Below are positions 27,092 to 46,539 of a stretch of DNA of 46,539 nucleotides, one piece after another. Each line of letters starts with the position of its first letter. The first letter of the stretch is position 1. A program made the translations under genes and the position numbers. The notes below the pieces were generated by a model. That model ran no database searches and was not told the DNA's origin. It saw only the letters and a list, made by a program, of their open reading frames with translations. The stretch is from a virus: positions 1 to 46,539 of the IMG/VR virus record IMGVR_UViG_3300018080_000038. One strand, 5' to 3'.

Positions 27092-27493
27092 ATGTTTAAT
27101 GAAAAAGAGATTTGCGTATCCGCAGAGGATTACGGGATCGACTCGAAGAGGCTCGCTGAGCTTGACGCGAAGATGATCGATTGCGTCTTCACGGCTTGCG
27201 GGAGCGAGGAAGAAGTCGAGGAAAGACAGAAGGAGCTCGAGGAGGCCGGGACTGAACGACTGAAAGAGATATACGACATCCTTCAGGACTTCAATCAGCT
27301 CGAGATCGCGTTCTATATAACGCATCTTGTCGGAGCGACTCTCCAGCCGGATGTTCTTTCGCATCACAATCGTATGCGCATGCTCTGGATGGCGAAGAAG
27401 GCTCAGGATACCGGCGAAGAAAAATATGCTGCGATCGCTTCGAGGATCGCTATGTCGAATATAAAAGATTTTCTTGGAGGGCTTTTCAGATGA
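27092..27493 (+). CDS. Helical protein of unknown function (133 aa)
   Basis: Not recognised. Residues about 18-70 are an acidic helix with GSEEEVEERQKELEEAG, followed by a hydrophobic helical part (FNQLEIAFYITHLVGATLQPDV). No enzymatic motif. AAAGGAGGG precedes the ATG. The last four bases overlap the CmoA-like gene, so the two are translationally coupled, and this protein could be part of the modification cassette; nothing in its sequence proves it. Confidence 0.65.
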   Translation: MFNEKEICVSAEDYGIDSKRLAELDAKMIDCVFTACGSEEEVEERQKELEEAGTERLKEIYDILQDFNQLEIAFYITHLVGATLQPDVLSHHNRMRMLWMAKKAQDTGEEKYAAIASRIAMSNIKDFLGGLFR

Positions 27494-28173
27494 ACGAAAA
27501 AAGAAACAAAGGTGATTTCTCGTTCGATACGATCGAGAGTTTCGATGAGCATATAGGAACGTCGATCCCGAGATACAAAGATATCCACGCGTGCATAGAC
27601 GGGATGCTTCAGTATTTCGTTGTTGACGGATCGAAGATCGTCGATCTCGGATGTTCGACCGGATCGCTTTTAACGCGGATCGATAAGAAGTATCACGACA
27701 AGGATCTCGTGCTGCACGGATACGACAGCAGCAAGAATCTGCTTCCGTCCGATTCGTCCGGGCGCGCCCACTTCTTCCTTAACGATATAACGGACGAAGA
27801 GCTCTGGGACGAGATGAAAAAGTCAGACATCATTTTCTCGATCTTCACGCTCTGTTTTATACCATACGCGGAGAGGCGCGAGCTCGTTCAGAACGTTTAT
27901 TATAATCTGAACGATGGAGGAGTCTTTATCTTTACCGATAAAGTCTATGCTTCAGATCCGAGAATACAGGACATCTTTACGTTTCTGTATTACGATTTCA
28001 AGCGTCAGACTTATACGTCGGAACAGATCCTCGACAAGGAGATCTCGCTCCGGGAAATCCAGAAGCCTCTAACGACGGAACAGAACTATGACATGTTATC
28101 TGACGCCGGTTTTGATCGAGTTGAGAGCTTCTGGAAATATTATAACTTCCAGGGATGGATCTGTATAAAATGA
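27490..28173 (+). CDS. CmoA-like SAM-dependent enzyme (carboxy-SAM synthase homologue)
   Basis: 227 residues aligned by eye with E. coli CmoA over nearly its full length: FD..E.FD..I..SIPRY.DI at 12-32, motif I VDLGCSTGS (51-59), Asp79 in HGYDSS, IFTLCFIPYAERREL (118-132), YYDFKR (167-172) and the C-terminal DMLSDAGF. CmoA makes carboxy-S-adenosylmethionine from SAM and prephenate for tRNA wobble uridine modification; its partner CmoB is absent here. As I recall, E. coli Arg199 holds the carboxylate; the aligned residue is Glu184, with Arg188 close by, so substrate use is uncertain. It may supply carboxy-SAM, or a related cofactor, to the nearby methyltransferase. Confidence 0.82.
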   Translation: MNEKRNKGDFSFDTIESFDEHIGTSIPRYKDIHACIDGMLQYFVVDGSKIVDLGCSTGSLLTRIDKKYHDKDLVLHGYDSSKNLLPSDSSGRAHFFLNDITDEELWDEMKKSDIIFSIFTLCFIPYAERRELVQNVYYNLNDGGVFIFTDKVYASDPRIQDIFTFLYYDFKRQTYTSEQILDKEISLREIQKPLTTEQNYDMLSDAGFDRVESFWKYYNFQGWICIK

Positions 28174-28613
28174 AGATTCTCGTAATAGGGCAAGCCCCGA
28201 GTCGGAAATCAGATCCGTGCAAGCCGTGGAGTCACGGAGCGAGCGCGAAAAGGCTCTGGAAATGGTTCGGCGTTGAATCCCGCGATCAGCTTTTGGAAGT
28301 GGCTGATCTTTTTAACGCCGTACCATACTGGCCGGGATCTGCCGGTGCGAAGGGAGACAAGATCCCGAGAGGCGAAGAGCTCTCCATGGTCCGAGATCGA
28401 GTTATCCGGAAGATCCGGCGCGGAGGATACAAGCACGTGATCGTCGTCGGAAAATTCGTGGACGATCTTGTCAGGGATTATTTGAGAAGGAAAAACATAA
28501 CAGCTCTAACGATCCCGCATCCGTCCGGAGCGAACATCTCGGCGAACGGGATCGACGAAGAGATGATTATGAAGCTGGTTAAATTTATGATGATAATAGG
28601 AGAAGAAAAATGA
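28170..28613 (+). CDS. Uracil-DNA glycosylase superfamily-like protein
   Basis: 147 residues from ATG 28170 (ATGA overlap); ATG 28155 is an alternative. It has the two UDG-fold signatures: GQAPSRKSDP at 7-16, where motif A GxxPG lies in UDGs, and IPHPSGAN at 115-122, corresponding to the HPSxxN/H loop. This subgroup, with GQAPS and a WSHGASAKRL segment, is common in phages, but its substrate is not established. Between a SAM-enzyme and a cytosine methyltransferase it could remove or act on modified or mismatched bases. Catalysis is unproven. Confidence 0.75.
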   Translation: MKILVIGQAPSRKSDPCKPWSHGASAKRLWKWFGVESRDQLLEVADLFNAVPYWPGSAGAKGDKIPRGEELSMVRDRVIRKIRRGGYKHVIVVGKFVDDLVRDYLRRKNITALTIPHPSGANISANGIDEEMIMKLVKFMMIIGEEK

Positions 28614-29740
28614 GGAACGTTCCGCCGGTTGCAAGAAGGTACAAACCACCAACTATGGTCCAAGTTTATCAGGGGGAGGCGAAGAAACTTTTCAACGTGA
28701 TATCGACATTCGCCGGTACGGGAGGATCATCTACAGGATACAGATTGGCCGGCGGATACGTTCTCGCCATGAACGAGTTTATAAAAGAGGCAAGGGATTG
28801 TTACGCCGAGAATTATCCGTACACCATAATCATGCCGGAGGACATCCGGAAGCTGACGGGGAAAGAGATCCTCGAGAGAGTCGGACTCGACGTTGGGGAG
28901 CTTGACATACTTGACGGCTCCCCACCCTGCGCCTCGTTCTCTATGTCCGGGAAGCGCGAAGAGCACTGGGGCAAGGAGAAGAAGTACAGCGAAACGAAAC
29001 AGAGAACCGATGATCTCTTTTTCGAGTTCGCGCGCATCCTCGAGGAGATCCAGCCGAAAGCGTTCGTTGGAGAGAACGTTCAGGGACTGACGGTCGGCAA
29101 AGCTGCGGCGATGCTCGGAGACGGTCAGCCGGATCTCTTCGGAGAAAGCGAAGACACGATCATCGGAACCCTTCAGAACTGCGGATACAGAGTCGCAGCG
29201 AAGGTTATAAACGCGAAGGATTACGGAGTCCCGCAGAATCGGCCCAGACTAATAATGATAGGCGTTCGGAAGGATCTCGAGATCTCACCGACGCATCCGC
29301 CGATTCTAACTCCGAGACCGTACACTCTCATCGAGGCCTTGACGGATCTCGAGCAGACGGAGGAAGACATACAGGAGGCCGTTATCGGAAAACAGTATCA
29401 GGTGTACAAGTGGCTCGAACAGATGGAGCCCGGACAGGCCGGCTCCGACGTTCATCCGAACGGTTCCTATTTCAATCTGAAAAGACTCGCGTGGGACGAG
29501 CCGGTCGGAACCGTCTGCCAGTCTCACGGATCTCCCGGAATCGCGTGCTCGCACATGCATCCGGACGAGATGAGGAAATTATCGATGCCGGAATTGAAAC
29601 GCGTCTCGAGCTTCCCGGACGACTTCGTCTTGACCGGGACGTTCCAGCAGCGTTGGGAGAGGATCGGGAGAGCCGTCCCGCCTCTTATGATGAAAGCTAT
29701 CGCAGAACATGTTTATAACACTGTTTTAAAGGATAAATAA
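28610..29740 (+). CDS. Cytosine-C5 DNA methyltransferase with Arg in motif X
   Basis: 376 residues with the C5-methyltransferase motifs in order: I FAGTGG (34-39), IV SPPC with nucleophile Cys107, VI ENV (155-157), VIII QNRPR (209-213), IX region about 325-343, X IGRAVPP (352-358). Motif X is normally GN(A/S)V; here Arg354 (codon AGA 29669-29671) replaces Asn. From memory, the engineered M.MpeI N374K change at the motif X Asn allows carboxy-SAM use and forms 5-carboxymethylcytosine. With the CmoA-like gene two genes upstream, a carboxymethyltransferase is plausible; a normal C5-methyltransferase is the alternative. ATGA overlap with the UDG-like gene. Confidence 0.93.
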   Translation: MRNVPPVARRYKPPTMVQVYQGEAKKLFNVISTFAGTGGSSTGYRLAGGYVLAMNEFIKEARDCYAENYPYTIIMPEDIRKLTGKEILERVGLDVGELDILDGSPPCASFSMSGKREEHWGKEKKYSETKQRTDDLFFEFARILEEIQPKAFVGENVQGLTVGKAAAMLGDGQPDLFGESEDTIIGTLQNCGYRVAAKVINAKDYGVPQNRPRLIMIGVRKDLEISPTHPPILTPRPYTLIEALTDLEQTEEDIQEAVIGKQYQVYKWLEQMEPGQAGSDVHPNGSYFNLKRLAWDEPVGTVCQSHGSPGIACSHMHPDEMRKLSMPELKRVSSFPDDFVLTGTFQQRWERIGRAVPPLMMKAIAEHVYNTVLKDK

Positions 29741-33713: not shown

Positions 33714-34427
33714 ATGAACGACTTAGACAGATTGCAAACGTTACAGGCGGAAATAGGAGGATGGTCGGATGAGACTTTCGGAGACGGCAGCCGGTTGAAA
33801 CCCTGCCTTGCTCATTTTAAAAAGGAAGTCTATGAACTCTATAACGATCCGAGCACCGAAGAGTTCGCGGACTGCCTGATGCTTCTTCTCGACGGAGCCC
33901 GGATGTACGGCCTCTCGACGGAAGAGCTCCTCGAGTACACTGAGCTCAAACTCGAGAGGAACCGAAAGCGGGAGTGGGGATCTCCCGATCGGAACGGAGC
34001 GATCGAACACGTTCGGGACGGAAAGCCGATCGTGTATCTCGCTGGTCCTATGCTCGACTGCAACGAAACTGAGATCTCGACGTGGAGGGAGACCGCGAAG
34101 ATCCTCCTCGAGACGGAGATTCGAGATCCCGGACTGAGGCCTGCCCAGGACGTGGTTTATCAGTCGAAGATCCACGACTCGAGCGACATCGTCGAGCCGG
34201 ACAAGGAGGATATATTCCAGAGCGACGTCATCCTCGCGAACTGCTGGAGGCCGAGCGCGGGAACCTCGATGGAGATCTATATGGGATGGGAGCTCTCGAA
34301 GCTCGTCGTCTCGATCGTCCCTCCGGACAAGAAGATCTCGGCGTGGGTTGACTACCACTCGGACGTCGTCTTCCGGAAGCTCGACACGGCGATCGACGCG
34401 ATCAACGACTGGGCGAGGAGAAAGTAA
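33714..34427 (+). CDS. Fusion of MazG-like dNTP pyrophosphohydrolase and nucleoside 2-deoxyribosyltransferase-like domains
   Basis: 237 residues. Residues about 1-95 match the dATP/dGTP pyrophosphohydrolase (DUF550/MazG-like) family: W(S)DETFG, HFKKEVYEL, STEEFADCLMLLLDGARMYG with acidic metal ligands. Residues about 106-237 match the nucleoside 2-deoxyribosyltransferase family: VYLAGPM at the nucleotide-binding strand, DIFQSDVILANC, and GTSMEIYMGWEL with a likely catalytic Glu. The fusion could hydrolyse dNTPs to dNMP and then cleave or exchange the base, reshaping the nucleotide pool. It may also sanitise unwanted nucleotides if DNA is modified. Both families are known; the joining is the notable point. 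Confidence 0.82.
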   Translation: MNDLDRLQTLQAEIGGWSDETFGDGSRLKPCLAHFKKEVYELYNDPSTEEFADCLMLLLDGARMYGLSTEELLEYTELKLERNRKREWGSPDRNGAIEHVRDGKPIVYLAGPMLDCNETEISTWRETAKILLETEIRDPGLRPAQDVVYQSKIHDSSDIVEPDKEDIFQSDVILANCWRPSAGTSMEIYMGWELSKLVVSIVPPDKKISAWVDYHSDVVFRKLDTAIDAINDWARRK

Positions 34428-46153: not shown

Positions 46154-46485
46154 GCAAATATCTCGACGAGCCGAAGTATCAGAAGAAGGTCAAGGACAAG
46201 ATCGAGGGATACGGGAGAGTTGCCCGGTTCTTCGCTGCAAACGACACCGATTATGAAGCGTGGTACATCAGTCCTCCTCGTCAGGCGAAGGCGACGGAGG
46301 CCGACAGCAATCATCCGGTTGACAGTATGATCTGTCTCGTCGCAGCTCTCGATATTCCGTTCACTCCGCAGAGAGGCCTCCGGATGCTCGATATGAAGAC
46401 GAGTATCTCATACAGGATCGTCGAGGTCGATCCGATCGACAGCGGAGATCTGACTCAGGCGTATCGTATCTGGTTGGGAAGATAA
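46150..46485 (+). CDS. Head closure / stopper protein
   Basis: 111 residues, ATGA overlap with the connector. It contains YQKKVKDKIEGYGRVARFF near the start and a beta-rich second half ending SYRIVEVDPIDSGDLTQAYRI, consistent with the small barrel stopper proteins that close the portal after packaging. Its last 23 codons including the stop are duplicated at 1-69. Assignment is mainly by position between connector and gp10-like neck gene. Confidence 0.7.
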   Translation: MSKYLDEPKYQKKVKDKIEGYGRVARFFAANDTDYEAWYISPPRQAKATEADSNHPVDSMICLVAALDIPFTPQRGLRMLDMKTSISYRIVEVDPIDSGDLTQAYRIWLGR

Positions 46486-46539
46486 AAGTGGGCGTCAATA
46501 TCAGAATGGTCAACTCGAAATCCTTTGTGAAGGATCTGA
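46417..46539. repeat. 123-bp terminal direct repeat (right copy)
   Basis: Identical to bases 1-123 with no mismatch. It includes the end of the head-closure gene and the first 52 bases of the neck gene. See the left copy. Confidence 0.97.
46488..46539 (+). CDS. Neck protein, 5' fragment (duplicate of 72-123)
   Basis: Begins with the same GTG and runs 52 bases to the window end. It is the start of the gp10-like gene that is complete at 72-497 and is cut only by the way the circle was opened. Confidence 0.9.
   Translation, partial: MGVNIRMVNSKSFVKDL

Follow-up and report, generated by a model that had tools for sequence, protein, structure and literature searches.

The locus considered here raises the question of whether a phage gene cluster that combines a CmoA homologue with a DNA cytosine C5-methyltransferase carrying an Arg in motif X directs the formation of 5-carboxymethylcytosine (5cxmC), as an earlier note on this DNA had proposed. 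The window, that is, the whole stretch of DNA analysed, is the 46,539-nucleotide viral record IMGVR_UViG_3300018080_000038, in which positions 1-123 are identical to positions 46417-46539. These identical 123-base ends, which may be a terminal repeat or the overlap of a circular assembly, indicate that the 46.5-kb phage record is probably a complete genome. The genome encodes phage tail, terminase, portal and capsid proteins, as well as replication genes. No tRNA genes were found in the window, the ParB partner described for the published system discussed below (PF02195; PMC12783734) was absent from it, and PF08003 had no match in it, which bears out the statement in the earlier note that CmoB is absent.

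The CmoA-like, UDG-like and C5-methyltransferase genes were located in one overlapping run at 27490-29740, where the earlier note had placed them. ATGA overlaps at 27490, 28170 and 28610 link a 133-aa ORF, cmoA, the UDG-like gene and the methyltransferase gene (Table 1). The presence of the UDG-like gene was upheld, but its listed start at 28155 was not, as an ATG at 28170, which forms the ATGA overlap with cmoA, is the likelier start. The 133-aa gene had no Pfam or PHROG match and probably shares a transcript with cmoA. Chance cannot account for the combination of CmoA, UDG and a methyltransferase with a motif X Arg.

Table 1. Features of the window cassette and chorismate mutase genes in related viral cassettes
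Feature	Location	Strand	Remarks
Gene of unassigned role, 133 aa	27092..27493	+	Directly upstream of cmoA, with ATGA overlap
cmoA homologue, predicted carboxy-SAM synthase (SAM + prephenate to carboxy-SAM)	27490..28173	+	227 aa
UDG-superfamily gene, SMUG1-like fold	28170..28613	+	Within cassette; listed ORF 28155-28613
cmoX homologue, predicted DNA cytosine C5-carboxymethyltransferase	28610..29740	+	376 aa
Arg354 codon AGA, motif X IGRAVPP	29669..29671	+	Equivalent to CmoX Arg350 and HhaI Asn304 (PMC12783734)
L019 chorismate mutase	L019:5717-5983		Between cmoA and cmoX; 88 aa, with CM_2 at 71 bits against a cut-off of 27
L016 DAHP synthase-chorismate mutase fusion	L016:3287-4231		
L015 DAHP synthase-chorismate mutase fusion	L015:25-969		
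L113 DAHP synthase-chorismate mutase architecture	L113:3833-4822		Judged from sequence
L116 DAHP synthase-chorismate mutase architecture	L116:632-1582		Judged from sequence
L188 DAHP synthase-chorismate mutase fusion	L188:118-1068		Directly before cmoX
L080 weaker chorismate mutase match	L080:4950-5201		35 bits
L088 weaker chorismate mutase match	L088:2208-2504		35 bits

Natural 5cxmC was established just in December 2025, for one phage, Synechococcus phage S-B43 (Nature Communications; PMC12783734). In that system, phage CmoA converts SAM and prephenate to carboxy-SAM, and CmoX (PDB 8YF3) is a DNA cytosine C5-carboxymethyltransferase that yields 5cxmC in vitro and in E. coli, whose wild-type form accepts carboxy-SAM as its sole cofactor and whose Arg350 touches the carboxymethyl group/carboxylate of carboxy-SAM (PMC12783734). 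A further enzyme, CmoY, an amide ligase resembling Asn synthase, attaches glycine, and the glycine amide alone was detected in S-B43 DNA. The same paper reported 5,615 candidate CmoX sequences, and its results for homologues of the window proteins include both enzyme activities, 5cxmC formation and HhaI resistance. The natural carboxymethylation mechanism put forward in the earlier note has thus been demonstrated with the S-B43 homologues of both proteins, the relevant residues of which are kept in the window, and this publication shows that the modification, which the note could not say was described or not, is already known. The parallel that the note drew with M.MpeI N374K is correct, and Arg350 is likened to it in PMC12783734: a basic residue in place of the motif X Asn permits the use of carboxy-SAM. 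M.MpeI N374K is an engineered CpG enzyme with Lys at this position, whereas the window enzyme is natural and has Arg.

The window CmoX homologue matched PF00145 (E 4e-54), with SPPC and Cys107 in motif IV and WERIGRAVPPLMM with Arg354 in motif X; the ORF and the alignment confirmed the reading IGRAVPP and the retention of the catalytic motifs. The best PDB match was 8YF3, the S-B43 CmoX with Cx-SAM (E 6.7e-82), which also ranked first in Foldseek (E 2.4e-35) when the predicted structure of the window protein (pLDDT 84) was used. Every residue named for 8YF3 was found in the window protein (F34, E56, F57, D78, S104-P105-P106-C107 and R354), with F34, E56, F57, D78 and R354 corresponding to Phe25, Glu47, Phe48, Asp69 and Arg350 of S-B43 CmoX. 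Over aligned positions, the sequence shares 49% identity with the S-B43 enzyme that was assayed and crystallised, and it is 50% identical to CmoX of Synechococcus phage S-CRM01.

The features by which CmoX proteins are recognised, namely SPPC with the catalytic Cys, the motif X Arg, the cofactor residues, and cmoA in the same run, were all present in the window, and as in the S-B43 system cmoA and cmoX lie in one overlapping run. On the basis of sequence, gene order, conserved residues and co-occurrence, the cassette very probably belongs to the CmoA-CmoX system published for carboxymethylation of cytosine in phage DNA. The phage CmoA would convert host SAM and prephenate to carboxy-SAM, Cys107 of CmoX would attack C6 of cytosine while Arg354 would hold the carboxylate of the carboxy-SAM cofactor, and the carboxymethyl group would be moved to C5, giving 5cxmC in phage DNA, a mark that probably shields this DNA from host restriction. 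The activity of the window proteins, the lack of further modification, the protective role and the target sequence are inferred. S-B43 differs from the 46.5-kb window phage in being a 214-kb cyanophage, and its CmoX has the specificity GC; GC dinucleotide counts in the window gave no usable sign of a modification site. S-CRM01 resembles the window phage in having overlapping cmoA and cmoX and a whole record with no Asn-synthase match, but it is a T4-like cyanophage and has no UDG-like gene between the two.

The window CmoA matched TIGR00740 with 107.8 bits (E 6.7e-31), under the equivalog cut-off of 193.3, and is therefore called a phage-type CmoA homologue rather than an equivalog of bacterial CmoA. 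It aligned over its full length to PDB 1im8 and 4gek (E about 1e-22 to 1e-21) and to 4iwn, and it matched PHROG 4752 (E 1e-58). Tyr29, Asp52, Gly54, Asp99 and Lys183 agree with E. coli CmoA. In the E. coli enzyme, Arg199 is described as forming a salt bridge with the carboxylate and as marking the family (PMC3663124); the window protein has Glu184 at this position, followed by Arg188 (i+4) and Lys192 (i+8), encoded at 28039-28065. The assayed S-B43 CmoA (SpCmoA) likewise carries Glu at position 199, with Arg/Lys at 203/207. Since that enzyme is active, Arg199 cannot be demanded of phage CmoA. The score under the cut-off and the lack of Arg199 count against the main reading of the cassette, the match to SpCmoA at the carboxylate site for it.

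Most phage CmoA proteins showed the same exchange, which was near-perfect over the window protein and 123 related CmoA sequences. Arg199 was present in 8 of the 126 aligned CmoA sequences, in none of which was position 203 Arg or position 207 basic, whereas Arg203 and/or Arg/Lys207 occurred in 116 of the 118 sequences lacking Arg199. At a 70% identity cut, seven sequences had Arg199 and the replacement was found in 56 of 58 without it (Fisher p 5e-8, which shared ancestry makes look stronger than it is). A helix would present positions 199, 203 and 207 on the same side, and most simply the residue that binds the carboxylate would in phage CmoA be shifted along it by one or two turns. The shifted basic residue corrects the Arg199-based rule for recognising carboxy-SAM synthases.

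CmoX relatives and cmoA loci were gathered from viral contigs and annotated phages, giving a set of 133 distinct CmoX-like sequences in addition to those of the window and S-B43; two sequences of the whole set could not be read at motif X. A single-sequence scan with the window CmoA gave no matches; an alignment-based scan did recover CmoA loci. The motif X Arg occurred together with cmoA in the locus for 116 CmoX-like sequences and without it for 11, and the readable non-Arg relatives (three Met, two Asn, one Leu) were all six without cmoA in the locus; the CmoX sample was picked by similarity to Arg-type queries, so that these counts show an association rather than an unbiased rate. The annotated phages with Arg (S-B43, S-CRM01, TurkishDelight, Mcat8, PaBG, Yoloswag and fHe-Yen9-02) and those without it (CL131, YS162, Melnitz, FPSV-S2, MD05 and phi18:3) fit this association. 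From the other direction, 70 of 80 viral cmoA loci had a CmoX-like gene within the stretch examined.

Two alternative explanations of the cassette were weighed against these data. The window enzyme might be an ordinary SAM-using enzyme that makes 5-methylcytosine and has its motif X Arg by accident, given that it has the fold and the catalytic motifs of a C5-methyltransferase and that nine related short Arg-type sequences of about 340 aa (L022-L029 and L031) are on contigs where no cmoA was found. The contigs of the L022-L031 group are 4 to 35 kb long, recorded as linear, mostly small fragments, and may be incomplete, and the CmoX-like proteins of the nine perhaps rely on host carboxy-SAM. When the whole records of 12 contigs with no nearby cmoA were searched, the gene was found elsewhere in one (L015). 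The earlier note had held that a motif X Arg common in ordinary SAM-using phage methyltransferases without CmoA neighbours would count against its proposal. The survey cut both ways: the readable non-Arg relatives all lacked cmoA in the locus, but so did 11 Arg-type sequences, and therefore Arg alone is no proof that a phage supplies its own carboxy-SAM. Nevertheless, S-B43 CmoX with the equivalent Arg accepts carboxy-SAM alone (PMC12783734), Arg tracks cmoA in the survey, and the window cmoA is in the same operon. An ordinary methyltransferase with an accidental Arg is very improbable and was rejected on the strength of this association and of the S-B43 biochemistry.

Alternatively, the CmoA might serve the wobble modification cmo5U of host tRNA through the host CmoB, or deplete SAM, with the methyltransferase as an accidental neighbour. 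The known cellular role of CmoA is tRNA modification, and SAM depletion by CmoA was raised as a possibility in PMC12783734. As the window has neither CmoB nor tRNA genes, however, a tRNA route is not evident and this role was rejected, and the frequent presence of a CmoX-like gene in viral cmoA loci also argues against a chance neighbourhood, so that this explanation is extremely improbable. Carboxymethylation of cytosine by the CmoA-CmoX pair remains the preferred reading.

Not every methyltransferase beside CmoA is of the Arg type, which speaks against the preferred reading. In the Staphylococcus phages SscS-F1 and SPbeta-like (L005:6001-8519 and L006:5968-7667), CmoA lies beside a C5-methyltransferase with Gly at motif X (VGGVINQ), which may have another way of binding carboxy-SAM or may do without it; a filter for Arg would miss these enzymes. 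In two other cassettes (L188:1065-3277 and L030:5956-8140), CmoX-like genes occur as a tandem pair, the members of which perhaps differ in target sequence.

If the window phage makes 5cxmC, the next question is whether this is the final base. The S-B43 system has CmoY; in the window no CmoY was recognised by phmmer with three queries, by PF00733, or by a profile built from 46 CmoY sequences of phages (best E 3.6), and a hidden CmoY was rejected after these searches. PF00733 also misses the CmoY of the related contig L012 and is insufficient as a sole test. Gene orders among relatives include cmoA-cmoY-UDG-cmoX (L012), cmoA-cmoY-cmoX (L009) and cmoA-cmoX (S-CRM01 and others). The window arrangement looks like the L012 cassette minus cmoY, with the SMUG1-like gene occupying the place of cmoY, which distinguishes it from S-B43. 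With no recognisable CmoY in an apparently complete genome, the end product and final base predicted for the DNA of the window phage is bare 5cxmC, barring an unrecognised ligase such as a divergent one encoded by an unannotated ORF. It might instead be that the carboxyl group is derivatised after 5cxmC has been made, by an unrecognised phage or host enzyme, as would be in line with the sole detection of the glycine amide in S-B43 DNA, with the position of cmoY between cmoA and cmoX in the close relatives L009 and L012, and with the several window ORFs that have no annotation. Against this stand the searches described above and the fact that no CmoY was seen in L010, L011, L013, L019, L021 or S-CRM01 either, and such derivatisation is unlikely. 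A small, apparently complete genome with no recognisable CmoY is a good test for bare 5cxmC as a natural final base.

The interest of the window lies mainly in this apparent absence of CmoY, in the embedded glycosylase-like gene and in side findings in relatives. Three elements go beyond the published picture: the shifted basic residue of CmoA, the chorismate mutase of related cassettes, and the SMUG1-like gene inside the cassette of the window and of one relative. The SMUG1-like protein matched PF03167 above the cut-off (1.6e-8), and its AlphaFold2 model (pLDDT 77) had Geobacter SMUG1 (5h98) as the best PDB match in Foldseek (E 1e-5, TM 0.62). SMUG1 carries an Asn within a GMNPG motif; the window protein has GQAPS as motif 1 and HPSG as motif 2. 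No match at 1e-5 was found in 50,697 phage records, and a single-sequence scan of the collection gave nothing; an alignment scan recovered the L012 contig alone (IMGVR_UViG_3300032053_000095), where a 50% identical protein (L012:5538-5978) is likewise encoded directly before cmoX. The CmoX of this contig is about 60% identical to that of the window; unlike the window, the contig has CmoY between cmoA and UDG. These two cases are suggestive, without amounting to proof, of a functional link between the UDG-like gene and cmoX.

It is conceivable, but quite unlikely, that the window cassette stands apart as a variant of its own, with bare 5cxmC as the final base and the SMUG1-like protein as a dedicated partner; the protein might, for instance, excise the 5-carboxymethyluracil arising from deaminated 5cxmC or remove unwanted host or phage bases. 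Repair of deaminated 5cxmC, by analogy with the action of Vsr on deaminated 5-methylcytosine, would be speculation.

The chorismate mutase genes of related cassettes (Table 1) bear on the source of prephenate in these phages, which was left as an open question in PMC12783734, the main text of which is silent on chorismate mutase. When viral contigs were scanned with a chorismate mutase alignment, each of the six loci recovered was a CmoX cassette; the query was itself built from CmoX cassettes, and the scan is not an unbiased census. The sole match in phage records, MT837090.1, had bacterial-type genes and no cmoA or cmoX, and was discarded. No chorismate mutase was found in the window, and a search of the available literature found no paper on this enzyme in phage cmoA-cmoX cassettes. 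As chorismate mutase makes prephenate, the co-substrate of CmoA, the cassette-encoded mutases and DAHP synthase fusions would provide prephenate for phage CmoA, which speaks for the carboxymethylation reading.

Elsewhere in the window, a 237-aa ORF at 33714-34427 was found to contain a PF04447 dATP/dGTP pyrophosphohydrolase-like domain and a weak match, below the cut-off, to the nucleoside deoxyribosyltransferase-like family PF05014.
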